Positions 45,462 through 64,000 of a stretch of 64,000 nt of DNA are shown here, piece by piece. The translations under genes were made by a program, and so were the position numbers. The notes beneath the pieces were generated by a model, which ran no database searches, had not been told where the DNA came from, and saw only the letters and a program-made list of their open reading frames with translations. Numbering within the stretch: the first letter of the stretch is position 1; every line of letters starts with the position of its first letter. Origin of the DNA: Candidatus Xianfuyuplasma coldseepsis (GTDB taxonomy: Bacteria; Bacillota_I; Bacilli_A; Izemoplasmatales; Izemoplasmataceae); NCBI RefSeq assembly GCF_014023125.1, contig NZ_CP048914.1, positions 958,698 through 1,022,697 on the forward strand, written 5' to 3'.

Positions 45462-45495
45462 ATTCTAAATAAATACCCTTACATGAATTAAATTA

Positions 45496-46504: not shown

Positions 46505-46533
46505 AACAAAAACTCCCATTTTTTGGGAGTTTT
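46505..46533 (-). terminator. Terminator after the glutathione peroxidase gene
   Basis: On the minus strand AAAACTCCCA and TGGGAGTTTT (46524-46533 and 46509-46518 on the plus strand) form a strong stem followed by T residues. Confidence 0.85.
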
Positions 46534-46541
46534 ATGGATTG

Positions 46542-47015
46542 TTATAAGATGTTTTCAATATCGGCTTTCATTTTCATTGGATTGACATTGGGCGCATAGC
46601 GTTTGACGACATTTCCCTTGCGATCAATCAAGAATTTGGTGAAGTTCCATTTGATTTTGGAACCCAGTAATCCTTTTCCTTCTTGTTTTAAGTAGGTATA
46701 CAGGGGATTTTCATTTTCCCCGTTGACATCAATTTTCGCCAATACCGGAAAACTAACTCCATAATTCAACTTACAGAACGATTGGATTTCATCATTGGTT
46801 CCCGGTTCTTGATTCATAAATTGATTGCTTGGGAAACCTAGAATTTCAAAGCCTTTGTCATTGTATTCTTCATACAGAGCTTGTAGGTCTTCATATTGTG
46901 GTGTAAACCCACATTTACTAGCAACATTGACAATCACCAATACTTTGTCTTTGAATGTGCTTAAAGAAACTGTATTTCCAGCCGCATCTAATACGTCATA
47001 ATCATAAATACTCAT
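46542..47015 (-). CDS. Glutathione/thioredoxin peroxidase (Cys-GPx)
   Basis: This 157-residue thioredoxin-fold peroxidase has the peroxidatic Cys35 in VASKCGFTPQY, then GFPSNQF, a further Cys in SFCKLNYG, and Trp123-Asn124 in KWNFTKFLID, giving the Cys-Gln-Trp-Asn site of the family. As in other bacterial non-seleno enzymes the likely reductant is thioredoxin. Cytoplasmic. It has its own TATAAT -10 (47045-47050, minus strand) and a terminator, so it is monocistronic. SD AAAGGAGTGAT. Confidence 0.94.
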   Translation of the reverse strand: MSIYDYDVLDAAGNTVSLSTFKDKVLVIVNVASKCGFTPQYEDLQALYEEYNDKGFEILGFPSNQFMNQEPGTNDEIQSFCKLNYGVSFPVLAKIDVNGENENPLYTYLKQEGKGLLGSKIKWNFTKFLIDRKGNVVKRYAPNVNPMKMKADIENIL

Positions 47016-47081
47016 CGTATCACTCCTTTATGTTTAACACTATTATTATACCGAAAATCGGATAAGAAAACGAATCATATA

Positions 47082-49220: not shown

Positions 49221-49242
49221 GATGTCACCTGCCTACTGTTTC

Positions 49243-49271
49243 ATTATAGTCCTCATATAATATAAAGTAAA
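49243..49271 (-). promoter_or_regulatory. Promoter of the MMPL transporter gene
   Basis: TTTACT (49266-49271, minus strand), 17 bases, perfect TATAAT (49243-49248). Confidence 0.7.
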
Positions 49272-49274
49272 TAC

Positions 49275-49304
49275 AAAAAAACGATAGTTCAACTATCGTT
49301 TTTT
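49275..49304 (-). terminator. Terminator after the small membrane protein gene
   Basis: AAACGATAGTT and AACTATCGTTT pair closely, with a T run on the minus strand. It overlaps the last codons of the gene and precedes the MMPL promoter. Confidence 0.82.
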
Positions 49305-49751
49305 ACCTTTATTAGCTTGTTTGTTTTGCTTCTCATGACGATGTCTCAAATCATGGAGTATCTCTTCAGTATTATGTCCTAATCGGGTATAGGAAATCGT
49401 CATGACATAGGAATAGTACAGGAGGTATAGTGCTGATAAAACCAACACAATTATCTCAATAATGAACCCGTTAATAAAGACAATCAGTAAGGCTATCCCG
49501 AGATCTACTCCAATGACAAACCATTCACTTTTTAAGGCTTTGCTTTTCGATGTCATCGTAAAGACCAATTTCAAGATGACTCCGACAACTAGTGCAGCAT
49601 AGACTATTAACAGATTGTCTACATTGACAATCCATAAAATAATCGCTGTCCACAAAGTCGTATACATCGCAGGAAAGTTCATAGCCAATGTCAGTAGTTG
49701 TTGGACTATGGTTTCAAAGAAATACGTCGAATTAAATTTCGTTTCATTCAT
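49293..49751 (-). CDS. Small membrane protein, unknown function
   Basis: Not recognised. This 152-residue protein has about four hydrophobic segments (around 20-45, 48-68, 85-105 and 108-130) and a strongly basic C-terminal tail (HDLRHRHEKQNKQANKGKKR) expected on the cytoplasmic side. The start at 49751 is chosen because the longer frame begins with a GTG inside the AGGTGAT SD. It begins 13 bases after the serine hydrolase stop, so the two share an operon driven from 50779-50807. Confidence 0.75.
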   Translation of the reverse strand: MNETKFNSTYFFETIVQQLLTLAMNFPAMYTTLWTAIILWIVNVDNLLIVYAALVVGVILKLVFTMTSKSKALKSEWFVIGVDLGIALLIVFINGFIIEIIVLVLSALYLLYYSYVMTISYTRLGHNTEEILHDLRHRHEKQNKQANKGKKR

Positions 49752-49764
49752 TGTTATCACCTAC

Positions 49765-50760
49765 TTATAGTATATCACCTTGATATAGGATTTGATAGAG
49801 TTCTGAACGGACTTTATCAAATGTAGTACGATCATTGACGTTTGACAGCATGATCAGTTGGTAACCATAATCGACAAATAAACTCGATATCGAACGAGCT
49901 CCCGGTCCACCACCGGTATGATAGTTATAGTTTACCGGAGGAGTTTCATTGGTATCAGAAGCTAAAAAGAAGCCATACCCATACGACACATATTCATTGA
50001 TTGGTGTGTATTTAACAAACAACTTGTTAATCCACTCTTGTGGTAACAAGGTACAATCAAACAAGGATTGATTCCATTTGTGAAGGTCTAACACGGTAGA
50101 AAAGCATCCACCGCCACCCCCAGCTAGACGCATATCAATCGGCATCGCATCAACAATCTGTCCCTCGTTCACATCGTATGGAACTGCAAGATGATCAGAA
50201 GGATCATTATGATCAAAGTCGGTATCCTTCATATGGAGAGGTTCAAATAATGCATGTTTCAAATGCACATCAAAGGGTTCACCGCTGATGAGTTCAATTA
50301 ATCGTGTTAATACCATATACCCAGAACCAGAATATTCATATGCTGTTCCTGGTTCAAAACTTAACCCTAACGGGAACACGACGTCATCGACAAATACTTC
50401 ATAGAAATAATCCTTGGCAAAGTATGTACTATAGTCGGCAAATAATTCATATGGAGCAATTCCACTGGAATTGCACAACAACTGATGGATAGTAATCTTA
50501 CTGCCATGTTGATAATGAGGGAAATACGTATCTAATGTATCATCCAATGAACATTTTCCCTGGTATGCCAACAGTAACATCGCTACCGCAGTAAACTGTT
50601 TCGATACCGATGCAATTCGAATTCTCGTATCCAGAGTCATCGGTATTTGATTCTCGATATCGCGGTAGCCATGTGCTGCCTTATCAATAATTTGTTCTCC
50701 CTTACTAAGGAGTACTTGTCCATTAAACGAATGGGTTTTTAAAATGTCTTTTAGTTGCAT
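49765..50760 (-). CDS. Beta-lactamase-fold serine hydrolase
   Basis: This 331-residue member of the class C beta-lactamase/DD-peptidase-like family (PF00144) has the catalytic S51-V-S-K54 in IASVSKQFTA. A YEYSGSGY stretch takes the place of the usual Y-x-N motif, with Gly where Asn is common. The third motif is HTGGGPGARS. No signal peptide is seen, so it is probably a cytoplasmic esterase or peptidase rather than an antibiotic resistance enzyme. SD GAGGTGATG. It is the first gene of a two-gene operon, divergent from the GDPD genes. Confidence 0.88.
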   Translation of the reverse strand: MQLKDILKTHSFNGQVLLSKGEQIIDKAAHGYRDIENQIPMTLDTRIRIASVSKQFTAVAMLLLAYQGKCSLDDTLDTYFPHYQHGSKITIHQLLCNSSGIAPYELFADYSTYFAKDYFYEVFVDDVVFPLGLSFEPGTAYEYSGSGYMVLTRLIELISGEPFDVHLKHALFEPLHMKDTDFDHNDPSDHLAVPYDVNEGQIVDAMPIDMRLAGGGGGCFSTVLDLHKWNQSLFDCTLLPQEWINKLFVKYTPINEYVSYGYGFFLASDTNETPPVNYNYHTGGGPGARSISSLFVDYGYQLIMLSNVNDRTTFDKVRSELYQILYQGDIL

Positions 50761-50778
50761 GTCATCACCTCACTATTC

Positions 50779-50807
50779 ATTATAAAACCATCTGATTTGG
50801 TTTGCAA
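50779..50807 (-). promoter_or_regulatory. Promoter of the serine hydrolase operon
   Basis: TTGCAA (50802-50807), 17 bases, perfect TATAAT (50779-50784) on the minus strand. Confidence 0.75.
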
Positions 50808-50865
50808 TTTAAACTGATTTTTTCTTATCTTTGAAGCAACGTTGCTATGTTATCATTGAGATTTC

Positions 50866-50892
50866 TTGTTTTTTTTCGTTTCGCGGTATAAT
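50866..50892 (+). promoter_or_regulatory. Promoter of the glycerophosphodiesterase operon
   Basis: A perfect TATAAT at 50887-50892, 28 bases before the start codon. The -35 is poor (TTGTTT at 50866-50871, spacing 15), so either an activator or a T-rich upstream tract may help. Confidence 0.5.
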
Positions 50893-50920
50893 AGATGTAT
50901 AGAAAAGCGAGGTGAGACGA

Positions 50921-52759
50921 ATGAAACTGTATCTACAAAAAGCATATCAATTACTACGATTTAACATTCGTCCATTACTTGTCTTTGAAATCATCTACCG
51001 GTTACTAGGACTCGCAATTGTGTATCCGCTTGTTACTGGGATCTTATATCTATCCGTACGTTGGACCGGATTTGAGTATGTCGTTAATGCGGACTTCTTT
51101 GAGTATATTACAGACATTCGCACAATCCTTCTTGGCTTGTTTTTATTACTGGTATTTGGCATCTATGTTACCTATGAAGTCGTCGTTCTATCGATTGTCT
51201 TTCATGCCAGTCATCATCGCCAACCAGTGGGAATCCAGTCATTATTGATCGTATCGGGAAAACGATTATATCAGATGATTAAGTCGTATCATATCGTCAT
51301 CATTACCTCCTCGATGATTTTCTTATTCTTAGTCGAGTTGTTTCATATTGTCGGGATTGCGAGTACGGTACAAATACCGGATTATATCGCTTCCGAGTTA
51401 GCCCGGTTTTCGTGGTTCCGCCCGGTTGCATTTTTCCTCATTGTGGGGTTGCTTGTATTGTTTATTGAAACGATCTTCTTTGAGCTTCAATGTACGATTG
51501 AAAAACCAACATTGAAAGAGAATTTTAATCACTCACGACGACTTTTAAAAGGCAATCGTTTGAAAATGGTAATCTCATTCTTTATTGTCAATGGAATCAT
51601 CAATGTCTTAATCTATGCCCTCTACCTAATCATTATCGGGATTGTCGCCTTGTTTGTCCTACTATTCCGCGGAGAGTCTACCGTATATCCCATTATCTTG
51701 TCGATTATTTATAGCGTTTATCTGATTGTAGGGTTACTAGCAACCATCATTTTAATCCCAATTAACTTTGCCTGGATTAATGCATATTACTATAAACACA
51801 AGATCACAAAACACCTAGAACTCGTAGAGGATGTTCGGTATATCCGATCCAATCGTCCATTTCGTAGAACGGTATTTTATCGAATTATTTCCGGAGTAAC
51901 GGTTCTTCTCGCGATTGGAACCATCATCTTTATTTCGTTCATCTCCAACAACCCAGCCAAGCTGGAGTTGTTAAATAATCCGGTTGTCGTATCCCATCGT
52001 GGTGGAGGTAATTTTGGACCAGAAAACACGATTGCAGGGATCCAGCAAGGACTTGATTTCGCAGCGGATGCAATTGAAATTGACGTTCGGTTTACCAAAG
52101 ATGGTGTACCTGTCTTACTTCATGATGCGACCTTAACCAGAACCACAAACGATACCGCAAATACCAAGATCTCCGATCTTACGTATGAAGAACTGGCCCA
52201 ATATGACGCCGGTTCGTGGTTCGATGAAGCGTTCGCTGGCGAACCGATCCCGACATTAGATGAAGCACTCCGTCAAATTAATTTTCAAGCGACCATCTTC
52301 TTGGAACTAAAAGACTCGTATCAAGGGGGAGAAGAAATCATTGTCGAAATGCTCCAGGATCGATTTTTAGTTCGTAATGTTATCATACTCTCTTTTAATC
52401 AAGGACAGTTAGAGCGAATCAAAGCGTTAGATGATCGAATTGAAACACTCCTATTACTAAGTTCTTTTATTGGTGATATCTCCGTGATAGCAGGAAATGA
52501 TCGCATTGATAACATCGGCTTTCGGTATGAACTTGCGCAAGGAAATGCCGATCGTATTCGGATTCTTCAACAAGCCGGTAAGGAAGTCTATATTTGGACC
52601 ATTAATAACCAAGACGCAATATCGGAGATGAATTCTCTTAATGTTGACGGGATTATCACCGACTATCCCCTTCTAACACGGGAAGTTATTTATTCAGATT
52701 CCACAAAATCCGAATATCGTAAACTTCTAGAAACGATTTTTTCACGCGATATCCAATAA
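50921..52759 (+). CDS. Membrane-bound glycerophosphodiester phosphodiesterase
   Basis: This 612-residue two-part protein has an N-terminal membrane domain (about 1-345, with seven or eight hydrophobic segments) and a GlpQ-type phosphodiesterase domain (about 355-595). That domain has the metal/catalytic motif VSHRGGGNFGPENT, IEIDVRFTKDGVPVLLHD and FLELKDSY. It hydrolyses glycerophosphodiesters to glycerol 3-phosphate and an alcohol, possibly from lipid or teichoic-acid turnover. The start at 50921 has GAGGTG just upstream; a reading from 50912 begins within the SD. The cytoplasmic paralogue follows 20 bases later. Confidence 0.9.
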   Translation: MKLYLQKAYQLLRFNIRPLLVFEIIYRLLGLAIVYPLVTGILYLSVRWTGFEYVVNADFFEYITDIRTILLGLFLLLVFGIYVTYEVVVLSIVFHASHHRQPVGIQSLLIVSGKRLYQMIKSYHIVIITSSMIFLFLVELFHIVGIASTVQIPDYIASELARFSWFRPVAFFLIVGLLVLFIETIFFELQCTIEKPTLKENFNHSRRLLKGNRLKMVISFFIVNGIINVLIYALYLIIIGIVALFVLLFRGESTVYPIILSIIYSVYLIVGLLATIILIPINFAWINAYYYKHKITKHLELVEDVRYIRSNRPFRRTVFYRIISGVTVLLAIGTIIFISFISNNPAKLELLNNPVVVSHRGGGNFGPENTIAGIQQGLDFAADAIEIDVRFTKDGVPVLLHDATLTRTTNDTANTKISDLTYEELAQYDAGSWFDEAFAGEPIPTLDEALRQINFQATIFLELKDSYQGGEEIIVEMLQDRFLVRNVIILSFNQGQLERIKALDDRIETLLLLSSFIGDISVIAGNDRIDNIGFRYELAQGNADRIRILQQAGKEVYIWTINNQDAISEMNSLNVDGIITDYPLLTREVIYSDSTKSEYRKLLETIFSRDIQ

Positions 52760-52779
52760 CGAATGAAGAAGGAATCCTT

Positions 52780-53523
52780 ATGGACAACAAACCCTTTATC
52801 ACCATCCACCGTGGTGGTGGAAACGATGCGCCGGAAAACACACTATACGCCATTCGTCAAGGACTCAAATATCCTGTGGATGCGATTGAGTTTGACGTCC
52901 GTTTTACGAAGGATCACATTCCCGTTTTACTGCATGATGCCTCCTTGAAACGGACAACCACAGAACAAGATAAGCGCTACATCAAGGATGTGACACTAGA
53001 AGAAGCACGGACTTTTGATGCAACAAGTTGGTTTGATTCACGTATTCCCAAAGAACCAATCCCAACACTAGAAGAAGCGCTACAATTACTACAAGGCAAG
53101 AAACAAATCTTCATTGAAATCAAAGCGCATGATCCCTATATGGGACTTACGATAAAGCGACTCCTAGAAACCTATAACATGGTTGACGATGTCTTTATCT
53201 TATCCTTTTACAAAGATATATTATTGGACATAAAAGAACATATTCCAACCGTTCACTGTACTTTTATCTTCTCCAGATGGAGACAACCTTTTGCAGCCTT
53301 GCTCGATCCTCGTTTTGATAGTATTGGTCCCAAATATCGATACTTGTATCGTCATCCCAAACTTGTGAAGTTTCTAAAAGAACACAATAAACCGATCTAT
53401 ACATGGTCTGTCAATAAGATGCGACATATCAAGCGATTTATCAAGTGGAAGATTGAAGGGATTACCACCGACAAACCCACGCAACTATTACACTACATAG
53501 AAAAACAATCTACTCGCGAGTAG
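52780..53523 (+). CDS. Glycerophosphodiester phosphodiesterase
   Basis: This 247-residue cytoplasmic GlpQ-family enzyme corresponds to the catalytic domain of its neighbour without the membrane part: TIHRGGGNDAPENT, IEFDVRFTKDHIPVLLHD and FIEIKAHDP are near-identical motifs. The pair probably arose by duplication and divides membrane-side and cytoplasmic turnover of glycerophosphodiesters. SD AAGGA. The terminator hairpin begins inside the last codons. Confidence 0.92.
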   Translation: MDNKPFITIHRGGGNDAPENTLYAIRQGLKYPVDAIEFDVRFTKDHIPVLLHDASLKRTTTEQDKRYIKDVTLEEARTFDATSWFDSRIPKEPIPTLEEALQLLQGKKQIFIEIKAHDPYMGLTIKRLLETYNMVDDVFILSFYKDILLDIKEHIPTVHCTFIFSRWRQPFAALLDPRFDSIGPKYRYLYRHPKLVKFLKEHNKPIYTWSVNKMRHIKRFIKWKIEGITTDKPTQLLHYIEKQSTRE

Positions 53524-53531
53524 ATTGTTTT
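53502..53531 (+). terminator. Terminator after the GDPD genes
   Basis: The perfect palindrome AAAACAATCTACTCG joined to its complement ends in TTTT. It spans the TAG stop codon at 53521-53523. Confidence 0.82.
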
Positions 53532-53603
53532 CGTATTGGGCATACAAAAAGAGAGAAGCCCATATGGTTTTACACAACTTGTATTTTATCCTTCATTAAT
53601 AAA

Positions 53604-53762
53604 TTAATGTATGGTATAAATCCTTTTCTTTACTTTGGATAATCGATTTCCATCTATTGATTTCTCAATGATTTTCATCCGGATTATTGGTTCCATTTCG
53701 ATCCAATTTTCTAATACATATTCAAGATTTTTATCGAGTTGTGCGTTCTTCTCTCCGTACAA
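53604..53762 (-). pseudogene. Possible gene remnant, 52 codons
   Basis: The minus-strand frame reads as protein-like (LYGEKNAQLDKNLEYVLENW at its start, ending KVKKRIYTIH), rich in charged and aliphatic residues. It has no SD and only a TTG start. In the same frame further upstream, more protein-like codons (FYTDLDIVDNFVDKYIVISY) are cut off by TGA, TAG and TAA stops between 53766 and 53792, as in a decaying gene. The family is not recognised, and chance is possible. Confidence 0.35.
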
Positions 53763-53811
53763 ATATTAAAGCACTTTAAAGAGCTATAGTCAATAGGAAA
53801 TGACGATATAC

Positions 53812-53832
53812 TTATCCACAAAGTTATCCACA
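53812..53832 (+). promoter_or_regulatory. Two tandem perfect DnaA boxes
   Basis: TTATCCACA occurs at 53812-53820 and 53824-53832, three bases apart and in the same orientation. An 8-of-9 match (TTATCCAAA, minus strand, 53634-53642) and a 7-of-9 match (minus strand, 53940-53948) lie within 200 bases. They could bind DnaA for titration or regulation. No dnaA gene is present. Confidence 0.5.
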
Positions 53833-54009
53833 ATATCAAGGTCAGTATAAAAAAGGGCTTTATTGGTTGATATTGAACCCTAGCGGTTTTTCAGGTCGTG
53901 GAAAACTTTTTGATGAAGAAAGCGCTTGCGCAAAAGGTGGATGGATAACGAACTAATTTATGTTGAATAACCTACATCATAAATCTATTATTTCACATCA
54001 AAAATATGT

Positions 54010-54038
54010 ATGACAACGCTTGTATTTCATAGTATTAT
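54010..54038 (+). promoter_or_regulatory. Promoter of the uronate operon with internal operator
   Basis: ATGACA (54010-54015), 17 bases, TATTAT (54033-54038). The inverted repeat ACAACGCTTGT (54013-54023) lies across the -35 box and spacer, where a GntR- or LacI-type uronate repressor or CcpA could act. Confidence 0.6.
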
Positions 54039-54077
54039 AGTGATGTAAAATAGAACCTTATTTTTAGGAGGCCAGTT

Positions 54078-55157
54078 ATGAAATTTAATCACGCAGCAAC
54101 ATATGATATTGTTGTTCCAACAAGTATGGGTGTCCGCTTAACACCACTGCATCGTCAAGTGGTTCATACGAGTACTCAATTTCAGCTACAAACAACATCC
54201 GCAGAAAGTAATGTGTTATCCTGTGGTGCATCACTTGGACTGAAGACAAAAGTCTTAACCGCATTTGTCAAAGACAGCCCGATTGCTCAGTTTATCAAAA
54301 ACGATTTAATGCGCCGTCATATTGAATATGACGGGCAAGATAAACCACAAGAAGGACCATGGGGATATCGTCATCAGTTTAATATCGCTGACAGTGGCTA
54401 TGGTCTTCGTGCACCACGCGTTCATAATGATCGTGCTGGAGAAGTGGGACGTACAATTCAATCCAGTGATTTTGATGTGGATCGATTGTTCCAAAAGGAT
54501 GGGGTAAAATTAATCCATATCTCAGGATTAATCGCTGCCTTAAGTACAACGACATCGACTTTCTGTGTGGAACTGGCAAAGAAAGCCAAACAACACAACA
54601 CACTAATCAGTTTTGATATTAACTATCGCGCATCGTTCTGGAAAGATCGGGAACAAGAACTGCGCAGCGTATTTCACGAAATCGCCTCATTGTCTGATAT
54701 CTTAATTGGAAATGAAGAAGACTTCCAACTAGCACTTGGTGTACAAGGACCAGAATCCGGTGGCGAACATCTCGAAAACAAAGTTCAACAGTTTATAGAT
54801 ATGATTGAAACGATGAAAACATCATATCCAAACGCCCAGATGTTTGCAACAACACTACGTGAAGTTGTGAGTGCAAACGAGCATTTATGGGGATCCATTG
54901 TCCATGATGTTACCACATCATCCTGGGAAATCGTCAACCCGCGACCGATACAAGTGTTGGATCGCATCGGTGGTGGTGACGGCTTTGTCGGTGGATTGCT
55001 GTATGGGTTAATTAAGGGAATGTCCCTTGCGGATGCCTGTCACTTTGGTTGGGCAAACGGGGCCTTTACTGCAACCTTATTAGACGATTATTCAATGCCG
55101 TTATCCGAAGAACAAATATGGAGCGTGTACGAAGGTAATGCACGCGTAAGGAGATAG
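54078..55157 (+). CDS. PfkB-family sugar-acid kinase (KDG kinase or gluconokinase)
   Basis: This 359-residue ribokinase-family kinase has the C-terminal catalytic motif DRIGGGDGFVGG (GGGD in place of GAGD) and the family core FDINYRASFW and IGNEEDF. The region GLRAPRVHNDRAGEVG is a lid or substrate segment. Annotation by similarity would be 2-keto-3-deoxygluconate kinase. However, the next gene is 6-phosphogluconate dehydrogenase and no KDG-forming dehydratase is present, so gluconate phosphorylation is equally plausible. It is the first gene of a five-gene operon with AGGAGG just before the ATG, and Gnd follows after 5 bases. Confidence 0.85.
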   Translation: MKFNHAATYDIVVPTSMGVRLTPLHRQVVHTSTQFQLQTTSAESNVLSCGASLGLKTKVLTAFVKDSPIAQFIKNDLMRRHIEYDGQDKPQEGPWGYRHQFNIADSGYGLRAPRVHNDRAGEVGRTIQSSDFDVDRLFQKDGVKLIHISGLIAALSTTTSTFCVELAKKAKQHNTLISFDINYRASFWKDREQELRSVFHEIASLSDILIGNEEDFQLALGVQGPESGGEHLENKVQQFIDMIETMKTSYPNAQMFATTLREVVSANEHLWGSIVHDVTTSSWEIVNPRPIQVLDRIGGGDGFVGGLLYGLIKGMSLADACHFGWANGAFTATLLDDYSMPLSEEQIWSVYEGNARVRR

Positions 55158-55162
55158 ATACA

Positions 55163-56611
55163 ATGACCTACAATATTGGAATGATTGGTCTTGCTGTCAT
55201 GGGTGAAAATCTTGTATTAAACATGGAATCCAAAGGATTTCATGTTTGTGGTTATGACATCGATCAAGACCGTGTCAACGCATTTAAAAATGGCCGAGCA
55301 AAAGGTAAAAATATTGGTTTTGCAGATTCACTAAAAGATCTTATAAACCAACTTGAAACGCCGCGTAAAATCATGATGATGATTCGTGCTGGTAGTCCCG
55401 TCGATCAAGTGATTGATCAACTCCTACCATTACTCGATCAAGGAGATATCATCATTGACGGTGGAAATTCAAACTACCACGATACCTTACGCCGTTATGA
55501 ACTTGTCACGAGCAAAGGCTTCTATTTCATTGGAAGTGGTGTTTCTGGGGGTGAAGAAGGGGCATTAAATGGACCATCACTAATGCCAGGAGGCTCTAAA
55601 GAGGCATGGGCTCATGTGGCTCCGATCTTTAAAGCAATCGCTGCCCGTACATCCGATGGAGACATCTGCACCGAATGGGTCGGACCTGGAGGGGCAGGAC
55701 ACTATGTAAAAATGGTACATAATGGAATTGAGTATGGTGACATCCAATTAATTACCGAAGTCTATCACATCATGCGCGATGGTTTACAAATGAGTCATGA
55801 TGATATGGCCGATGTCTTTGATCGGTGGAATCAAGGGGTACTTGATAGCTATCTGATTGATATTACCAAAGATATTTTACGAAAGAAAGACGAAGATGGT
55901 AGTGTCCTTGTTGAAAAGATACTAGATACCGCAGGACAAAAAGGTACTGGTAAATGGACTGCAATCAGTTCTCTTGAAGAAGGTATCCCATTATCTCTGA
56001 TCGGGGAAAGTGTATATGCACGTTTCTTATCCTCACAAAAATCAGAACGAATTGTAGCATCGAAAACCTATAATCGAACCATCAAACCGTTCAAGGTTAA
56101 CAAAGAAGAGTTCTTACAACAATTACACGACGCCCTCTATGTCGCTAAAATCATTAGTTATGCCCAAGGATTTGCTTTACTAAAAGAAGCATCTAAAATA
56201 AATAAATGGAATCTAAACTACGGAGATATTGCCTTAATGTGGCGTGGCGGATGCATCATTCGTAGTCGTTTCTTAGGCAAAATCAATAAAGCATTTACCA
56301 ATCAACCATCGCTGACAAATGTACTTCTAGATGGGTACTTCAAAGATGCTTTGGACAAACATATCAACAACTACCGCACCGTAGTAGCCAAAGGTATATT
56401 GCATGGTATTCCAATGCCATCACTCAGTGCCGGATTGGCCTACTTTGACGGATATACAACAGAGACCTTACCTGCGAATTTACTCCAAGCGATGCGCGAT
56501 TATTTCGGGGCTCATACCTACGAGAGAATCGACAAACCACGAGGTGAATTCTTCCACACCAATTGGACTGGTACAGGTGGAACCACTTCATCAACCACAT
56601 ACAACGCATAG
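55163..56611 (+). CDS. gnd: 6-phosphogluconate dehydrogenase, decarboxylating
   Basis: This 482-residue cytoplasmic enzyme oxidatively decarboxylates 6-phosphogluconate to ribulose 5-phosphate. The Rossmann motif is IGMIGLAVMGENL. The substrate and catalytic stretch is SGGEEGALNGPSLMPGG and VGPGGAGHYVKMVHNGIEYGD. The C-terminus HTNWTGTGGTTSSTTYNA is typical of the full-length family. SD AAGGAG. Its place inside a uronate operon, not a pentose-phosphate operon, is unusual and suggests that 6-phosphogluconate is an intermediate of that pathway. Confidence 0.95.
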   Translation: MTYNIGMIGLAVMGENLVLNMESKGFHVCGYDIDQDRVNAFKNGRAKGKNIGFADSLKDLINQLETPRKIMMMIRAGSPVDQVIDQLLPLLDQGDIIIDGGNSNYHDTLRRYELVTSKGFYFIGSGVSGGEEGALNGPSLMPGGSKEAWAHVAPIFKAIAARTSDGDICTEWVGPGGAGHYVKMVHNGIEYGDIQLITEVYHIMRDGLQMSHDDMADVFDRWNQGVLDSYLIDITKDILRKKDEDGSVLVEKILDTAGQKGTGKWTAISSLEEGIPLSLIGESVYARFLSSQKSERIVASKTYNRTIKPFKVNKEEFLQQLHDALYVAKIISYAQGFALLKEASKINKWNLNYGDIALMWRGGCIIRSRFLGKINKAFTNQPSLTNVLLDGYFKDALDKHINNYRTVVAKGILHGIPMPSLSAGLAYFDGYTTETLPANLLQAMRDYFGAHTYERIDKPRGEFFHTNWTGTGGTTSSTTYNA

Positions 56612-56622
56612 GAGGAAACCTC

Positions 56623-57885
56623 ATGGATATTCGATATTATGGTAAAGAACAAGGGTTATCCGATACAGAAATCTTGAAAGGTATTCAAAAATCCCTTCAA
56701 GATTTGACTGTAAACCGTGTTCTAATTATTCCTCCCGATATTACCCGATTTCATTCCTATGCCGGTCGAATCACCAATATGTACTACCACGAGTTAAAAG
56801 ACCTTTGTGAGATCGATATTTTACCGGCACTCGGTACCCATGTACCGATGCCAGATGATGAACTTGAAGAAATGTTTGGTGACATTCCTCTAGACAAATT
56901 CATCATCCATGACTGGCGCAATGACGTCGTAAAAATCGGTGAAGTCCCTGCGGACTATGTCAAGGATATTACCGGAGGCTATTGGGCCGAAAAAGTCACT
57001 TGTGAAATCAATAAGATTATTGTAGAAGGAGACTACGATTTAATTCTCTCCATCGGCCAAGTCGTTCCCCATGAAGTCATAGGAATGGCAAATCACTCCA
57101 AGAATCTACTCGTTGGTTGTGGTGGTAGAAACACCATCAACGAATCGCATATGATTGGGGCGGTCTACGGGATGGAACGGATGATGGGAAAAGATCATAC
57201 TCCTGTTCGTAAGATTCTTGATTATGCCTTGGAACACTATCTAAACAACCTACCGATCGTCTTTGTTCTTACGGTTACCACAGCCGTTAAAAACGATGTC
57301 ACCATTCACGGATTGTTCATTGGACCTAATCGTCCTACCTTTGAATCCGCGGTCGAGTTAGCTCAAAAGAAAAACATCGATTTCCTCGATCGTCCAATCA
57401 ACAAATGTGTCGTCTATCTAGACCCCAAAGAATTCAAATCTACCTGGCTTGGAAACAAAGCCGTATACCGCACAAGAATGGCAATCAAAGACGGTGGCGA
57501 ACTACTTATCTTAGCTCCCGGTGTCAAACGCTTTGGCGAAGATGATCGGATTGATGAATTGATTCGGACCTATGGTTATACGGGTCGTGATCAAGTCCTC
57601 AAGGACTTCCATAACAACAAGGATCTCCAAGACAATATGAGTGCTGCAGCCCATCTCATCCACGGCTCCAGTGATGGTCGCTTCACCATCACCTACGCCG
57701 TACAAGATATTACAAAAGAGGAGATTGAACAAGTACAATTCAATTATGCGAATTACCACGATGTCATTCAAACATACAACCCCGACACCTTAAACTATGG
57801 GTGGAATACTCTAGATAATGGAGAAGAGATTTTCTATATCCCCAACCCAGCTCTAGGGTTATGGATCGATAAAAATAAATTTTAA
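56623..57885 (+). CDS. LarA-family nickel-pincer racemase/epimerase homologue
   Basis: This 420-residue homologue of lactate racemase LarA (DUF2088) keeps the residues that bind the nickel-pincer nucleotide and catalyse hydride transfer: His73 in ALGTHVPMPDDEL, His150 in VVPHEV, Lys160 in ANHSKNL and His176 in NESHMIG. The 10 and 16 residue spacings between His150, Lys160 and His176 equal those in the Lactiplantibacillus enzyme (174, 184, 200). Family members racemise 2-hydroxyacids, and a gluconate 2-epimerase has been described. Between gnd and uxuB, mannonate/gluconate epimerisation is the best guess. The start at 56623 has GGAGGAAA upstream. Confidence 0.88.
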   Translation: MDIRYYGKEQGLSDTEILKGIQKSLQDLTVNRVLIIPPDITRFHSYAGRITNMYYHELKDLCEIDILPALGTHVPMPDDELEEMFGDIPLDKFIIHDWRNDVVKIGEVPADYVKDITGGYWAEKVTCEINKIIVEGDYDLILSIGQVVPHEVIGMANHSKNLLVGCGGRNTINESHMIGAVYGMERMMGKDHTPVRKILDYALEHYLNNLPIVFVLTVTTAVKNDVTIHGLFIGPNRPTFESAVELAQKKNIDFLDRPINKCVVYLDPKEFKSTWLGNKAVYRTRMAIKDGGELLILAPGVKRFGEDDRIDELIRTYGYTGRDQVLKDFHNNKDLQDNMSAAAHLIHGSSDGRFTITYAVQDITKEEIEQVQFNYANYHDVIQTYNPDTLNYGWNTLDNGEEIFYIPNPALGLWIDKNKF

Positions 57886-57918
57886 GACAAGAACGCAACT
57901 TATCTATGATACAATAAA

Positions 57919-57939
57919 ACTAACATTTCATTTGTTAGT
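57919..57939 (+). repeat. Inverted repeat between the larA homologue and uxuB
   Basis: ACTAACA and TGTTAGT flank seven bases in the 69-base gap, just after a TACAAT -10-like element (57910-57915) that has no good -35. It may be an mRNA processing stem or an operator of an internal promoter. Confidence 0.35.
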
Positions 57940-57954
57940 AGAAAGAAGGCACAA

Positions 57955-58797
57955 ATGAAATTACCACAAATTCACGATTTACAAGGAAAAACAGTTGTTT
58001 TAACAGGAGGCGCAGGGGTCCTTGGGACAACCTTCGCAAGAGCACTTGCACAGGCCAATGCCAATGTGGCAATACTGGATTTAAATGAAACGGCAGCCAC
58101 TGCTTTAGCAAGCGAAATTCAAGCGTTAGGCCAACACGCCATTGGCGTGAAATGTAACGTCTTAGACAAAACCAGTATTGAAGCAGCACGAGAGACAGTA
58201 TTAAAGGCATACAAGAAAGTGGATATCTTAATCAATGGTGCCGGAGGCAATCATCCTAGTGGTACCACAGGACATGAGTTCTTTGATAAAGAGGATCTCA
58301 AGAACGACATCAAAACATTCTTTGATCTTGATCCCGACGGTATCCAATTTGTCTTTAACTTAAATTTCATTGGTACGTTACTACCAACCCAAGTCTTTGC
58401 CAAAGACTTACTCGATGGTGGTAACATTATCAACATCTCGAGCATGAATGCATTCACACCACTGACAAAGATACCAGCCTACAGTGGTGCCAAAGCAGCT
58501 ATCAGCAACTTTACCCAGTGGCTTGCAGTTTACTTCAGTAAAGCCGGTATTCGTTGCAATGCGATTGCTCCTGGATTCTTCCTGACAAAACAAAACGAAG
58601 CGTTGTTACTGGACGAAAACAAACAATTCACACCACGAGCACAGAAGATCATTACCAATACGCCAATGGGACGTTTTGGTAATAGTGAAGAACTCGTTGG
58701 TGCGGTACTCTTTTTAATCAACAATGACGCAGCCAGTTTTATCAACGGTGTTGTCCTTCCTGTGGATGGTGGATTTAGTTCATATAGCGGGGTGTAA
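57955..58797 (+). CDS. uxuB: SDR-type fructuronate reductase (mannonate dehydrogenase)
   Basis: This 280-residue short-chain dehydrogenase of the YjmF/UxuB type interconverts D-fructuronate and D-mannonate with NAD(P)H. The cofactor motif is TGGAGVLGTTFARAL, then INGAGGNHP, INISSMNAF with the catalytic Ser region, and Y-x3-K in PAYSGAKAAI. AIAPGFFLT and PVDGGFSSYSGV are typical of this subgroup. SD is AAGG, modest. The inserted segment ATGHEFFDKEDL-like (about 104-125) is usual for the group. uxaC follows seven bases downstream. Confidence 0.9.
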   Translation: MKLPQIHDLQGKTVVLTGGAGVLGTTFARALAQANANVAILDLNETAATALASEIQALGQHAIGVKCNVLDKTSIEAARETVLKAYKKVDILINGAGGNHPSGTTGHEFFDKEDLKNDIKTFFDLDPDGIQFVFNLNFIGTLLPTQVFAKDLLDGGNIINISSMNAFTPLTKIPAYSGAKAAISNFTQWLAVYFSKAGIRCNAIAPGFFLTKQNEALLLDENKQFTPRAQKIITNTPMGRFGNSEELVGAVLFLINNDAASFINGVVLPVDGGFSSYSGV

Positions 58798-58804
58798 TAT
58801 ATTT

Positions 58805-60193
58805 ATGTTTGTAAACGACGATTTCCTGTTACAATCAGGGCTCGCCAAAGAGCTCTACAAAGAAATTAAAGACTTACCTATTATTGATTTTCACAACCAC
58901 TTACCACCACGAGACATCTACAAAAACGATCCCTACACCAACATTGCGGATATGTGGTTGGCACATGATCACTACAAATGGCGCTTAATGCGCAACAGTG
59001 GTATCGATGAAGAATTTATTACCGGTGACGGTGATCCCAAAGATAAATTCTTTAGCTATGTTGCTTCGTTAGAGAGAGCCTATATGAATCCTCTACATCA
59101 TTGGAGTCATATGGAGTTAAAAGAATACTTCAACATTACCGATGTCTTAACGACCGATAATGCGGAGGATATTTATCAACAAGCCAATGAGTTTCTAGAA
59201 AGTACAACCGTTGGTCCACGAGAACTCTTAGAACAAAAACAAGTCGAAGTTCTCTGCACCACCGATGATTTAAACGATGATTTGGAATTTCACAAGCTCA
59301 TTCGTGACGATAAAACCTTTGACATTCAAGTCCTACCTACCTTCCGTCCCGATTCCTTGTTTATGTTTAATGATGCGTCTTTCTTTGATGTGATTACATT
59401 ACTCGAAAAAAACACATCGATTACCATCAGTGGGATTACAACTTTAGCAACCGCGTTATCGAAACGCTTAGACTATTTCAATGTCAATGGCTGTAAAGTT
59501 GCCGATCACGGTCTCAGTGAACTCCACTATGTTCAAGTATCCAAATCCGATGCATCCAAAATCTTAAAGAAACGCTTAATGAAATACGAACTATCCCCCC
59601 TCGAAGTAGCCAAATTAACCAACTACTTACTCAAGTTTTTCATTAAGGAATATGCAATTCGCGATATGGTATGTCAAATTCACATTGGTGCACTACGTAA
59701 TACCAATGAACGGATGTTTAAACAAGTCGGTAAAGACAGCGGATACGACAGTTTATCCGGAAGCAACTACATCAATGACTTAAATGAACTCCTAAACGAA
59801 ATTCACAGTCATTACCCATTACCCAAAATGATTTTATTTAACTTGAACCCACGTGATAATGAAGCCCTTGCTTCATTATGTGGAAACTTCAGTTGCCAAA
59901 CACCTGGTAAGGTTCAACTCGGTGCGGCTTGGTGGTTCAATGATCACTTAAGAGGCATCACCAATCAGCTTGCAACCTTTAGTGAGTATCTGAATCTAAG
60001 TACCTTTGTCGGTATGCTTACCGATTCTCGTAGTTTCTTATCGTTTGTCCGTCACGATTACTTCCGTCGAATTCTTTGTAATTTTGTCGTCGACAATGTT
60101 CAAAAAGGACTTATCCCTAACGACATGGAACATTTAAAACAATTGGTTCGTGATATTGCTTATTACAACAGTAAAAGTTATTTTAATTTATAA
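58805..60193 (+). CDS. uxaC: Uronate isomerase
   Basis: This 462-residue amidohydrolase-superfamily enzyme converts D-glucuronate to D-fructuronate (and galacturonate to tagaturonate). Metal ligands are in IIDFHNHLPPRDIY. Family stretches are LCTTDDLNDDLEFHK, PTFRPD, IRDMVCQIHIGALRNTN and MLTDSRSFLSFVRHDYFRRILCN. The start at 58805 is chosen because homologues begin about here. An open frame reaching back to 58724 runs into uxuB. The SD (GGGGTG) is weak, so coupling to uxuB is likely. It catalyses the first step of the pathway although it is the last gene, and a terminator follows. Confidence 0.94.
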   Translation: MFVNDDFLLQSGLAKELYKEIKDLPIIDFHNHLPPRDIYKNDPYTNIADMWLAHDHYKWRLMRNSGIDEEFITGDGDPKDKFFSYVASLERAYMNPLHHWSHMELKEYFNITDVLTTDNAEDIYQQANEFLESTTVGPRELLEQKQVEVLCTTDDLNDDLEFHKLIRDDKTFDIQVLPTFRPDSLFMFNDASFFDVITLLEKNTSITISGITTLATALSKRLDYFNVNGCKVADHGLSELHYVQVSKSDASKILKKRLMKYELSPLEVAKLTNYLLKFFIKEYAIRDMVCQIHIGALRNTNERMFKQVGKDSGYDSLSGSNYINDLNELLNEIHSHYPLPKMILFNLNPRDNEALASLCGNFSCQTPGKVQLGAAWWFNDHLRGITNQLATFSEYLNLSTFVGMLTDSRSFLSFVRHDYFRRILCNFVVDNVQKGLIPNDMEHLKQLVRDIAYYNSKSYFNL

Positions 60194-60198
60194 GATAG

Positions 60199-60230
60199 AA
60201 GTCTCACGTTTAACGTGAGACTTTCTTTTT
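60199..60230 (+). terminator. Terminator of the uronate operon
   Basis: AAGTCTCACG and CGTGAGACTT form a ten-pair stem followed by TCTTTTT. Confidence 0.87.
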
Positions 60231-60280
60231 ATTTATAATCTAGTATAATATGAATATACGTAGATGAAGTAGGTGAATCA

Positions 60281-61381
60281 ATGAATCCATTTCGAACAGA
60301 GGAATTACTCGAAAGCTACAATGGTATTGCATTAATGTTAGAAGATGATAAAATCGTGTATATTAATCATCAATTTTCAGAATTGCTGGGGTATACACAA
60401 AATGATGTCATTGATCTCCATGTAATTGAATTGATTAACCCGGATGATCGAGCGGAGTTTACCAATGGCGTATTTGTCAATCCCGGGGCCTCGGAAATGA
60501 CGACTCAGATCTATCATAAGAATGGATCACATATGTATTTCACACTGAATGCATTTCAGTTCAAAAATACGTATGTCGTACTTGGTAAACGCCTGCGGCG
60601 TCAATACAAAAGCTTTGATTACGACATCACAAAAGAAGATATCATGCAATCGTATATTAATCATCAAATGGACGTGGATGACATATCCGAGATCGTTACA
60701 ACACGCTTTGATGAACTTCGTTTTGCATTGGATAATTTACCGGTAGATTTTTGGATTAAAGACAAAGATCATCGGTATTTATTCATGAATGAAATCATGT
60801 TGAAACGGACAAAAATGGAACCAAACAGCTACTACCTTAAGAATGACTTCGATTTATTTGATCGGGACATTGCCAATGATTTCTTAAAGACCGATATGCA
60901 AGCAATCAAAACAAAAAAGAAAGTTCAATACATCTTTGAGTCCAAAACAAGTCGTTTTGTAAAATGGACGGAAGTATCGAAAGTTCCTATTTTCAATAAA
61001 GACGATAAATACATTGGTCTAATATCCTGTGCCATCGACATCTCCAGTATCAAAGGAAACGAAGCAGAACTAGCACAAGAAAATAAGGCACTTTTGGATA
61101 TTTTACATAGTCAATATGATGTTGTAGTGTACATTAATAGCGATGGGTATATCGAACATCAGTTTAACCGATTGAATTTGGATTTTGAGCAACGACATTA
61201 TCGTGAGTGTTTTAAAGAAAACACCATGTTATTGCGATATCTTGATGCAGGATTAAAAGGGATTGAAAGCAACTTTTTAGGAACCATAAAAGGAATAGCG
61301 GCAAACATTGTTGTAAAACCAGTATCTTTACCCGATGGACATCAACGATTGTTTCTATTCGGACGGGAACAACGTTCATAA
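60281..61381 (+). CDS. PAS-domain sensory protein
   Basis: This 366-residue cytoplasmic protein has two clear PAS domains: about 1-105 (GIALMLEDDKIVYINHQFSELLGYT) and about 145-265 (LDNLPVDFWIKDKDHRYLFMN, ending LISCAIDISSIKGNEAEL). A PAS-like remainder spans about 275-366. No output domain is present. Its stop shares a base with the start of the next gene (TAATG), a GGDEF/HD-GYP protein, so it probably modulates that enzyme. A TATAAT at 60244-60249 serves as promoter, with no clear -35. SD AGGTGA. Confidence 0.85.
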   Translation: MNPFRTEELLESYNGIALMLEDDKIVYINHQFSELLGYTQNDVIDLHVIELINPDDRAEFTNGVFVNPGASEMTTQIYHKNGSHMYFTLNAFQFKNTYVVLGKRLRRQYKSFDYDITKEDIMQSYINHQMDVDDISEIVTTRFDELRFALDNLPVDFWIKDKDHRYLFMNEIMLKRTKMEPNSYYLKNDFDLFDRDIANDFLKTDMQAIKTKKKVQYIFESKTSRFVKWTEVSKVPIFNKDDKYIGLISCAIDISSIKGNEAELAQENKALLDILHSQYDVVVYINSDGYIEHQFNRLNLDFEQRHYRECFKENTMLLRYLDAGLKGIESNFLGTIKGIAANIVVKPVSLPDGHQRLFLFGREQRS

Positions 61382-63363
61382 TGGATATTATTACGTTTCT
61401 ATCATCAAATACGAATCATATTGTTCGAATCTGTGATATAGAGAACAATTCGATTTACTCCAATCCCAGCTATTCCATCGCTGAAATACCCTATGAGGAA
61501 GGGGTGTTTCCCTTCCATGATTGGACCATTACAAATACCATCCTCACCATCGATAACGTTCCGTATTTATTTTCTTCCATCCAAGAATTACAGACAACAA
61601 CTTATTTGGCAACGTTAATGAATACCTTTCGAAACTTAGGTATCCCGATTGCCATCATCCATAACAAACAAGTGCTCTTTCGCAATGAAACATTAACAGC
61701 ATTATTAAAAACTCCTGAAGAAGACTTAACGACTACACCGTGGCAAAAACTACAACAACCTTATAAGAGCCGTATCCAGCGACTACTAACGAAAGAGTCG
61801 TATAACTCAGCTGAAATTTACGTGGATATTAACCCCGACGAAACCCATTGGTTTATCATCAACAAAGCCGTATTGAAAATTGAGGGTGAAACCTACATCA
61901 TTTTTGTCTTTCAACTGGCTGATGTAATGAAACAAAGAGAACTCGCATACAATCAACAGCAAGCATTCTTAACCAATGTATTCGAATCGATTTTTGAAGG
62001 GATCCTCGTTATTGATATTCATAACAATATAACCTTTATTAACCAAGAAGCTATCAAACTACTCGGCGTGACCAAACAAGTCGTTGGAACCAAGGTGACG
62101 GATGTCTTACGAATCTTTGGTGCCAATGGTAACCCATTTAACTATCTAATAATAGAAGAACTCAAATCCAACGAGTATGAACTGGAAACATTATCGGGAA
62201 TGAACTACTATATCAATCTCCGCATTCGTGACATGGTTGATAAAAACAATGACAAGTTGGGTAAAATCATTTCCTTCTTTGAGATAGGTGAAGAGAAAAA
62301 ACGGGAAAAGGAAATTCTCTATCTTACCTACCACGATACCATGACAGGACTACACAATCGAACCTTCTTTGAAGAACAACTGCGATTATTTGATACGCCG
62401 CGGAAACTACCATTATCGATCATCCTAGGTGATGTGAATGGTTTAAAATTAACCAATGATGTGTTCGGTCATGAAGCAGGTGATTTACTATTAAAACGGA
62501 TCGCACGAATCATGAAAAGCACCTGTCGCCAAGAAGATGTGATCGCCCGTTGGGGTGGAGATGAGTTTATCATCCTCCTACCAAATACAAACGAAACGCA
62601 AGTTCATATCATTATGAATCGAATCATCGCTGAAATTGAACGGGTATACAAAGATCATGAAATCCAATCGATTCTTCCAAGCCTTTCCCTAGGATATGGT
62701 GTAAAAACGACTGAAACAGAAGATGTCTACCATATCATTAATATTGCCGAACAAAACATGTATAAACGAAAAATGCTGACAAACTCCAGCATCTATTCAT
62801 CGATTATTACATCGATGACGCAATCCTTATTTGAGCGTTCCAGTGAAACCGAAGAACATGCGAATAGACTTCGTGATTACGCCCATAAAATCGCTCGAAA
62901 ACTACAGGTAACTGAAGCCGATATTCAAGATTTAACACTTCTCGCAAAATTACATGATATCGGTAAAATCGGAATCCCAGATGAAATTTTAAACAAACCC
63001 ACCTCCCTCACAAACGATGAATGGACCATTATGAAAAAACATCCTGAAATCGGATATCGTATTGCCAATTCAACATCCGAACTCAAAGGGGTTGCTACCT
63101 ACATCCTATCCCACCATGAACGCTATGATGGTACGGGGTATCCAAAAGGTTTGCAAGGAGAAAACATCCCCCTATTATCTCGAATTATCAGCGTTGTTGA
63201 TGCCTATGATGCGATGTTATATGATCGACCTTATCGAGCAGCTTTACCGCATCATAAGGTTATTGAAGAAATTCAAAACAACGCAGGAACTCAATTTGAT
63301 CCCCTGATTGCTACAACGTTCTTACAAATAATCCGTGAAGAACAAGAAAAAGCACCCCAATAA
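61381..63363 (+). CDS. PAS-GGDEF-HD-GYP cyclic-di-GMP enzyme
   Basis: This 660-residue hybrid protein has PAS-like regions (about 75-190 and 195-310), then a GGDEF domain with an intact GGDEF site at 392-396 and an inhibitory RxxD I-site five residues before it (R383-Q-E-D386). A C-terminal HD-GYP phosphodiesterase domain follows, with H525-D526 and HHERYDGTGYP from 578. Both synthesis and hydrolysis of cyclic di-GMP are possible from the motifs. It lacks membrane segments, so it is cytoplasmic. It is translationally coupled to the PAS protein upstream, which may provide its signal input. Confidence 0.92.
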   Translation: MDIITFLSSNTNHIVRICDIENNSIYSNPSYSIAEIPYEEGVFPFHDWTITNTILTIDNVPYLFSSIQELQTTTYLATLMNTFRNLGIPIAIIHNKQVLFRNETLTALLKTPEEDLTTTPWQKLQQPYKSRIQRLLTKESYNSAEIYVDINPDETHWFIINKAVLKIEGETYIIFVFQLADVMKQRELAYNQQQAFLTNVFESIFEGILVIDIHNNITFINQEAIKLLGVTKQVVGTKVTDVLRIFGANGNPFNYLIIEELKSNEYELETLSGMNYYINLRIRDMVDKNNDKLGKIISFFEIGEEKKREKEILYLTYHDTMTGLHNRTFFEEQLRLFDTPRKLPLSIILGDVNGLKLTNDVFGHEAGDLLLKRIARIMKSTCRQEDVIARWGGDEFIILLPNTNETQVHIIMNRIIAEIERVYKDHEIQSILPSLSLGYGVKTTETEDVYHIINIAEQNMYKRKMLTNSSIYSSIITSMTQSLFERSSETEEHANRLRDYAHKIARKLQVTEADIQDLTLLAKLHDIGKIGIPDEILNKPTSLTNDEWTIMKKHPEIGYRIANSTSELKGVATYILSHHERYDGTGYPKGLQGENIPLLSRIISVVDAYDAMLYDRPYRAALPHHKVIEEIQNNAGTQFDPLIATTFLQIIREEQEKAPQ

Positions 63364-63378
63364 GGAGTGCTTTATCTT
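63349..63378 (+). terminator. Terminator after the GGDEF/HD-GYP gene
   Basis: AAAGCACCCC pairs with GGAGTGCTTT with one mismatch around AATAA, then a modest T-rich stretch. The stem includes the stop codon. Confidence 0.6.
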
Positions 63379-63493
63379 TATCTATAATCTAAAAAATAAA
63401 AAGGAATCATGAAGGAAGCACCTGCTTCACCTCTACTGTAACATGCAATGTTACAAAATAAATCGATTGGAAATTAAGAAAAGTAAAAAAAGT

Positions 63494-63521
63494 AAAAAAC
63501 GCTACATTTTTGTAGCGTTTT
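63494..63521 (-). terminator. Terminator of the Ig-like lipoprotein gene
   Basis: AAAACGCTACA and TGTAGCGTTTT pair around four T. The minus strand continues with a six-T run, and the stop codon of the gene lies three bases before the stem. Confidence 0.85.
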
Positions 63522-63523
63522 AC

Positions 63524-64000
63524 TTATTCTATTACATGGACAACACGTGGTATTTCCGTAACATTACCCGCTTCATCCGTCAGAGTATAAATAATCGTAT
63601 AACTACCAACAAAATCCGTAGAATAGCCAATAGGATACGTAACACTAATCTCTACATCACTATAATTGTCTACTGCATCAACACCAGGATCAACCCACTC
63701 ATCACCTTTATGAATCGTGTCTACACCATAAAGAAGCATTCCTTCTGGAGCAACGTTATCAACAACAAACACCGCCCGTTGACATGTATAGTCATCGTAT
63801 TCATAATCAATCATATACGTACCTATGGTATCTGTATCTACGGGATTATTGGTGATTACCATATCAAAGGATTCATCATTGATTGTAATGATACACCCTT
63901 CGGGGGTGTAATCCTCAAATACTGTGACCGTATCATGTCCCGGTTCTAGTGAGATACTCACCTCATCGGGGGTACATCCAACTAAGAATAGAAGAGGAAG
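63524..64000 (-). CDS. Ig-like (DUF5011/HYR) lipoprotein, cut by the window end
   Basis: The 158 visible residues lack only the start and part of the signal peptide. The frame continues upstream of the GTG at 63961 and shows LPLLFLVGC-TPDE, a clear lipobox, so the true start lies beyond 64000. Two Ig-like regions follow. The second (about 85-155) has the DUF5011 pattern DTIHKGDEWVDPGVDAVDNY...VGSYTIIYTLTDEAGNVTE, the same type as the stalk of the sugar-binding lipoprotein at 26998-28719. It is a surface protein of unknown role, perhaps a longer protein's spacer or a stand-alone adhesion-type module. Confidence 0.8.
   Translation of the reverse strand, partial: LPLLFLVGCTPDEVSISLEPGHDTVTVFEDYTPEGCIITINDESFDMVITNNPVDTDTIGTYMIDYEYDDYTCQRAVFVVDNVAPEGMLLYGVDTIHKGDEWVDPGVDAVDNYSDVEISVTYPIGYSTDFVGSYTIIYTLTDEAGNVTEIPRVVHVIE

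Follow-up and report, generated by a model that had tools for sequence, protein, structure and literature searches.

The classical isomerase pathway for hexuronates proceeds through UxaC, UxuB, UxuA, KdgK and KdgA. In 2012 Rodionova proposed for Thermotoga maritima a route that leads from mannonate through gluconate to the pentose phosphate pathway, as cited in PMC3750489, PMC7583248 and PMC6978723, and the epimerases GntE1 and GntE2 were assayed in 2020 and act on unphosphorylated mannonate, GntE2 (structure 4nar) being a D-mannonate/D-gluconate epimerase (PMC7583248). In the galacturonate route of Lactobacillus suebicus, as PMC6978723 describes it, mannonate is also turned into 6-phosphogluconate with a redox-neutral entry into the pentose phosphate pathway. 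Here, we describe an operon of five genes at positions 54078-60193 of a 64,000-nucleotide stretch of the genome of Candidatus Xianfuyuplasma coldseepsis (contig NZ_CP048914.1, positions 958,698 to 1,022,697; hereafter the window), which probably encodes an UxuA-free and largely redox-balanced hexuronate route running through the epimerisation of mannonate to gluconate.

The operon resembles the hexuronate network of T. maritima in that UxaC, a fructuronate reductase, a LarA-type epimerase and the 6-phosphogluconate dehydrogenase Gnd occur together, along with a kinase that would supply the gluconate kinase step. There are also clear differences. T. maritima carries kdgAK-uxuBA in addition, whereas neither UxuA nor 2-keto-3-deoxy-6-phosphogluconate (KDPG) aldolase turned up in the genome studied here; its GntE2 belongs to group 20 of the LarA homologues (LarAH) and ours to group 18; its kinase is named GntK and ours is of the PfkB family; and it possesses LarC, which was not found in the window's genome. 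L. suebicus and the operon share the conversion of mannonate to 6-phosphogluconate, and UxuA was not detected in the L. suebicus proteome just as it was not found here. In that organism, however, the kinase acts first and the epimerase second, the genes are unidentified and the route ends in phosphoketolase (PMC6978723). With the classical pathway the operon has the first two reactions in common and differs by the presence of Gnd and the LarA homologue and by UxuA and KDPG aldolase not being found. Because of the T. maritima proposal and the assayed epimerase, the route of the operon is a variant rather than a first example: its outline was already known, and the new features are the group-18 enzyme, the loss of UxuA and a PfkB protein predicted to act as gluconokinase.

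The five genes lie on the forward strand with gaps of 5, 11, 69 and 7 bases between them, and Pfam and NCBIfam matches bear out the families named in the initial annotation. They encode, in order, a PfkB-family kinase (54078-55157; PF00294), Gnd (55163-56611; TIGR00873, 726 bits against a cut-off of 427), the LarA homologue (56623-57885; PF09861), a reductase of the short-chain dehydrogenase/reductase (SDR) type (57955-58797) and the glucuronate isomerase UxaC (58805-60193; PF02614, 593 bits; NF002794, 547 bits, cut-off 387). For the LarA homologue, the ATG at 56623 behind an AGGAGG was preferred over the mechanical start, a TTG at 56563. The fourth gene had been taken for UxuB; the predicted activity stands, since the protein matches the D-mannonate oxidoreductase model NF006132 (420 bits, cut-off 281), and the family does not, since it is an SDR and not a dehydrogenase of the long mannitol-dehydrogenase type to which Escherichia coli UxuB belongs. 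A model of the pathway can be read from the last gene to the first. UxaC would isomerise D-glucuronate to D-fructuronate and the SDR would reduce it to D-mannonate, a D-fructuronate reductase activity. The LarA homologue would then flip C2 of D-mannonate to give D-gluconate, by transient hydride transfer to the rare cofactor nickel-pincer nucleotide (NPN), the PfkB kinase would phosphorylate D-gluconate to 6-phosphogluconate and Gnd would decarboxylate this oxidatively to ribulose 5-phosphate and CO2. We infer all the substrates, the order of epimerisation before phosphorylation and the use of NPN.

Two enzymes that the classical route would require after mannonate were looked for. The genome is a single contig of 1,958,905 bases, 99.2% complete, and searches of the whole of it for UxuA (PF03786) and KDPG aldolase (PF01081), the two families covered, found neither. 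The same searches gave matches in 5 and 8, respectively, of 14 well-known control genomes. Gnd of the operon is the only PF00393 match in the genome and zwf is present elsewhere in it, so that Gnd is probably not reserved for the glucuronate route here but has a second task in the ordinary oxidative pentose phosphate pathway. By the window's class we mean genomes marked as belonging to the same order or the same class as the window's genome; in all 11 carriers of this class an intact Gnd sits in the cassette (one of them, G147, has a second, broken PF00393 match elsewhere) and G6PD_C was detected in just 3. The other eight (G051, G053, G059, G064, G078, G082, G086 and G115; completeness 68-97%) have Gnd without a detected glucose 6-phosphate dehydrogenase, and therefore 6-phosphogluconate needs another source there, unless zwf was missed.

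The proposed epimerase step would depend on the LarA homologue. It scores 655.8 bits against the curated model NF052594 ('nickel-dependent putative hexonate epimerase'; cut-off 500), the next model reaching 51 bits, and is thus a member of LarAH group 18 (hereafter LarA18). Across 91 LarA18 sequences D39, R42, H73, H150, E151, V152, K160, H176, W275, N278 and K279 are invariant. Within this set D39, R42, H73, H150, K160, H176 and K279 correspond to the NPN-binding and catalytic residues D72, R75, H108, H174, K184, H200 and K298 of LarA, and E151, V152 and W275 form the signature of groups 18-20, namely E followed by V or S after the catalytic histidine and W in helix 11 (PMC7583248). The predicted structure (pLDDT 89.7) is nearest to GntE2 (4nar; E 4e-27, TM 0.84). 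We therefore predict a NPN-dependent D-mannonate/D-gluconate 2-epimerase. For group 18 the 2020 study put forward a hexonate substrate as a hypothesis (PMC7583248), and the words 'group 18' or 'LarAH18' do not occur in the 2024 follow-up paper.

How widespread is this arrangement? A first sample consisted of the window's genome and 149 relatives, 150 genomes in total. NF052594 exceeded its cut-off in 11 of them and matched weakly in two more; the 11 are the window's genome and 10 others, each of which shares its order or class, but not its genus or family. Adding 50 further carriers to these 11 gave 61 carrier genomes. The loci compared number 90, made up of 10 from the window's class and the best 80 of 574 confirmed relatives, with the fragment L025 left out; L015/G115 and L032/G155 have an identical LarA18 and are probably one genome, so that the 61 carriers stand for 60 and the 90 loci include one duplicate. 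Acholeplasmataceae are among the carriers of close homologues. If genes on its strand and no more than 5 kb away are counted, LarA18 is accompanied by Gnd in 74 of the 90 loci, by the kinase in 46, by the SDR in 40 and by UxaC in 20; for the 46 loci whose sequence extends over more than 5 kb on both sides, the numbers are 39, 31, 26 and 12. The cassette is conserved across phyla. Other neighbours, whose clusters were each named from one representative, fit the same pathway: UxaE near LarA18 in 14 of the 90 loci and a reductase of the mannitol-dehydrogenase type in 6. A cluster of PHP proteins occurs in 5 loci and one of Cof-type HAD phosphatases (representative PF08282) in 18. The phosphatase lies between Gnd and LarA18 in eleven loci (L027, L029, L030, L033, L034, L044, L046, L053, L073, L074 and L102) and perhaps clears a dead-end sugar-acid phosphate. 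UxuA is over its cut-off in 8 of the 61 carrier genomes.

Two plasmid loci link LarA18 to a gluconokinase directly. On a plasmid of Saccharobesus litoralis (L152:11491-13260) gluconokinase and LarA18 share one reading frame of 589 residues, with GntK at residues 3-157 (TIGR01313) and LarA18 at residues 171-581 (NF052594, 619 bits), in a gene annotated as gluconokinase only. Downstream follow LarE, LarB, an annotated tagaturonate epimerase, Gnd and UxaC. A 2021 PeerJ paper on the Saccharobesus strain lists this tagaturonate epimerase; the word racemase does not occur in it. On a plasmid of Catenovulum adriaticum the order is UxaC, TRAP transporter, gluconokinase, LarA18, LarC, LarE and LarB. 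Both LarA18 have the active-site residues of the window's enzyme, and 68 of the 71 columns that are invariant in the 91 LarA18 are unchanged. The two loci thus share with our operon LarA18, UxaC, a sugar-acid kinase and, in S. litoralis, Gnd, and they differ from it by a kinase of the GntK/IdnK type in place of PfkB and by having Lar cofactor genes alongside.

The sequence of the PfkB kinase does not fix its substrate, since no NCBIfam model is reached at its cut-off: the 5-dehydro-2-deoxygluconokinase model gives 97 bits (cut-off 300) and the KdgK models NF040938 and NF052444 give 43 and 32 bits (cut-off 400 each). The protein has a motif of its own, W95-G-x-R98-H99-Q-F-N102, which is kept across 47 sequences. 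Its R119 and R184 presumably match the carboxylate-binding arginines of 2-keto-3-deoxygluconate (KDG) kinase structures, and an aldonate is therefore a likely substrate. Because GntK is fused or adjacent to LarA18 on the two plasmids, gluconate is favoured, with mannonate as the second possibility. To our knowledge, no PfkB gluconokinase has been described. The only kinase of the operon is PfkB and no GntK gluconokinase is found in it, the operon being the part of the genome in which GntK was looked for; a plasmid search with the PfkB kinase returned one match, at 30% identity. Three loci without PfkB kinase (L051:676-2855, L072 and L089) have a PF00365 phosphofructokinase-like gene and a gene for a protein of about 294 residues preceding Gnd. 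The scans cover the L051 copies of the two genes; the latter protein has no Pfam match at 1e-8, and the pair is a possible substitute kinase.

Support for the route from glucuronate through gluconate to ribulose 5-phosphate, as the initial annotation had assembled it, thus comes from UxuA and KDPG aldolase not being found, from the conserved cassette, from Gnd without detected Zwf in 8 of 11 class carriers and from the fusion of gluconokinase to LarA18, all of them arguments from genomic sequence. Several observations weigh against it. The solved structure nearest to the kinase in fold and sequence is a KDG kinase (2afb, 25% identity), and among the NCBIfam models the kinase scores highest against that of a KHG/KDPG aldolase/sugar kinase fusion (163.7 bits, cut-off 700), followed by that of a haloarchaeal KDG/KDGal kinase, NF041332 (99 bits, cut-off 440). 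In G080, the closest carrier, the 18 kb around the operon (L017) contain no copy of the kinase. Of the 10 carriers of the window's class other than the window's genome, 6 have KDPG aldolase over its cut-off, so that KDG metabolism coexists with the cassette in some of them. LarA18 is without any of the other four genes within 5 kb in 14 of the 90 loci, and in 6 of the 46 with more than 5 kb on both sides; eight neighbouring open reading frames of six partnerless loci (L059, L060, L069, L075, L087 and L103) were scanned and none was a uronate gene, and L075 has a member of the UxaE cluster further off. Since 80 of the loci are the best-matching of 574, the linkage counts lean towards close relatives. 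We found no activity reported in the literature examined for any group-18 LarA homologue or for this kinase. To these points are added the precedent of L. suebicus and the missing cofactor genes, which are considered in turn.

The alternative that survives best, and that we nevertheless regard as unlikely, is that phosphorylation comes first, the PfkB protein being a mannonate kinase and the LarA homologue a 6-phosphomannonate 2-epimerase that yields 6-phosphogluconate. The lack of any PfkB gluconokinase known to us would agree with this order, and the Cof-type HAD phosphatase, through its possible role in removing a dead-end phosphate, could be accommodated by it. Moreover, both activities were measured in extracts of L. 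suebicus, though without assignment to genes (PMC6978723). Against it, the LarA18 of the two plasmids, with nearly all invariant columns unchanged, have a GntK/IdnK-type gluconokinase as fusion partner or neighbour, and the assayed GntE1 and GntE2 take mannonate in its unphosphorylated form (PMC7583248). We therefore retain epimerisation followed by phosphorylation of gluconate as the preferred order.

What we expected least was that the known cofactor genes would not be found. A NPN-dependent LarA is expected in a genome that encodes LarB, LarC and LarE, and the initial annotation took the three for granted. In the window's genome LarB and LarC have no match at E 0.001 and the best LarE match reaches 36 bits against a cut-off of 150, which means that the cofactor would come from elsewhere, through uptake of NPN or a precursor, or would be made by unrecognised genes. 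Twenty-one genomes of the window's class, including 11 carriers, gave no LarC (T. maritima, used as a control for the search, has it), and 20 of the 50 further carriers have the gene. Of all 61 carriers, 17 have LarB over its cut-off and 18 LarE; all three genes pass in 17, a single one in 4 and not one in 40, the window's genome included. One of the 40, G156, has a piece of LarE at a contig edge with 148.4 bits, just under the cut-off of 150. With 20 of 50, LarC is no more frequent in the carriers than in genomes drawn from the class Clostridia, where it occurs in 132 of 291. The comparison is rough, because the draw is at least 80% complete and includes one carrier, while the completeness of the 50 carriers is not known and some are not Clostridia.

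In a pair without LarB, LarC and LarE (L016/L028, the latter from the cultured carrier Peloplasma aerotolerans, G152) the ratio of nonsynonymous to synonymous substitution rates (dN/dS) is 0.045 for LarA18, next to 0.050 for the kinase, 0.071 for Gnd and 0.031 for the SDR. In three pairs of another genus that also lack the cofactor genes it is 0.088-0.138, with dS near saturation and with LarA18 somewhat above its neighbours in one pair; in a pair that has LarB, LarC and LarE it is 0.055. LarA18 is thus under purifying selection where the cofactor genes were not found. We considered a separate LarA18 clade with altered residues in genomes without these genes and found no support for it. A quick LarA18 tree with 61 rows shows no clustering of the label 'all three present', which requires 14 changes, compared with a mean of 15.0 after shuffling, and 161 of 500 shuffles came out as low; no catalytic or NPN residue differs. 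The label 'none' also requires 14 changes (mean 17.6; 17 of 500 as low), which makes it mildly clustered, and every row of the window's class carries it.

A further alternative, which seems to us less probable still than the kinase-first order, is that LarA18 uses a different, non-NPN cofactor in the genomes without LarB, LarC and LarE, or acts on another hexonate. The 40 carriers with all three genes under their cut-offs and the unremarkable frequency of LarC among carriers are what it would predict. On the other hand, the counterparts of the covalent lysine and the nickel histidine do not vary, whether the cofactor genes are present or not, and LarE and LarB accompany LarA18 on both plasmids, joined on one of them by LarC. 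In addition, the 17 genomes with all three Lar genes have no other Lar_N match above 120 bits in 13 cases and none at all in 11, which speaks for the use of NPN by LarA18, although other NPN users could be missed. This last argument is weakened by genomes reported to have LarB, LarC and LarE without LarA (PMC11796402) and by the fact that PF09861 can miss LarA homologues.

The use of NPN by LarA18 is thus the reading we prefer, and the cofactor gap is wider than this operon. Sixteen other LarA homologues (L154-L169, from 14 genomes) keep all seven NPN and catalytic residues in genomes where LarB, LarC and LarE are all under their cut-offs, and several of them carry the HFF loop of lactate racemase. 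A substitute maturation gene beside these homologues was looked for and rejected, no neighbour family being common to more than 4 of the 16 loci. Either NPN is taken up, or it is made by another route, or the genes were missed in draft genomes; because the window's genome is a single contig, the last is not an easy explanation. We give somewhat less than an even chance to the reading that nickel-pincer enzymes are in wide use among bacteria unable to make NPN through the LarB-LarE-LarC path, LarA18 here and in most carriers examined, together with the 16 further homologues, being orphan NPN enzymes. According to a 2024 mBio study (PMC11796402), LarA and the NPN pathway are both present in about 9% of genomes, and LarB, LarC and LarE without LarA in about 15%; in the portions of the literature available we found no mention of LarA without the three.

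Hardly credible, finally, is an ordinary KDG kinase in an operon belonging to a classical route completed by an unrecognised, enolase-family mannonate dehydratase and an aldolase of another family: the fold and best matches of the kinase would suit it and those dehydratases and aldolases lie outside the families searched, yet no KDG-kinase model (NF041332, NF040938 or NF052444) is reached at its cut-off, neither UxuA nor a PF01081 aldolase was found in the genome, and the kinase is linked to Gnd and LarA18, two proteins for which the classical route has no use.

If the mannonate-gluconate route is correct, many bacteria of the gut, the rumen and sediments would use the GntE route as a main way of breaking down hexuronates, and it would be more than a side branch of Thermotoga. 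LarAH group 18 would gain a substrate and a candidate family of PfkB gluconokinases a name. If the orphan enzymes do use NPN, the cofactor would be taken up and shared between microbes, as is vitamin B12, or would have a second biosynthesis. LarA homologues with intact NPN sites in genomes where the cofactor genes were not found make NPN exchange or an alternative synthesis directly testable.

With respect to the surroundings of the operon, a terminator-like hairpin with a stem of 12 pairs and a T tail lies 3' of UxaC (60198-60224, forward strand) and a promoter-like site with 10 of 12 consensus matches, which is weak evidence, lies 5' of the kinase (54010-54038, forward strand); the numbers of terminator-like and promoter-like sites in the region are not above those in shuffles. 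A Rfam scan of 45000-64000 gave no match at the gathering threshold. About 11 kb upstream, on the reverse strand and in a separate unit, are a glycoside hydrolase family 2 (GH2) enzyme nearest to beta-glucuronidase (40884-43172; NF050095 (LacZ4), 636 bits, under the cut-off of 950) and a GPH-type cation symporter that might carry glucuronides (39433-40872; PF13347; TIGR00792, 194 bits, under the cut-off of 231). As a possible source of glucuronate the two are suggestive only. They lie in a long polysaccharide-use region on the same strand (4417-43172), in which Pfam recognises two sulfatases, two GH35, a GH3, a GH2 and a SOGP-type phosphorylase and in which several transport genes were assigned from their translations only. 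Between this region and the operon, at 50912-53523, two glycerophosphodiester phosphodiesterase-like genes adjoin each other, the first with an extra membrane part, assigned from its translation, and the second recognised by PF03009. Directly behind the terminator-like hairpin, at 60281-63363, a PAS protein is followed by a PAS-GGDEF-HD protein.

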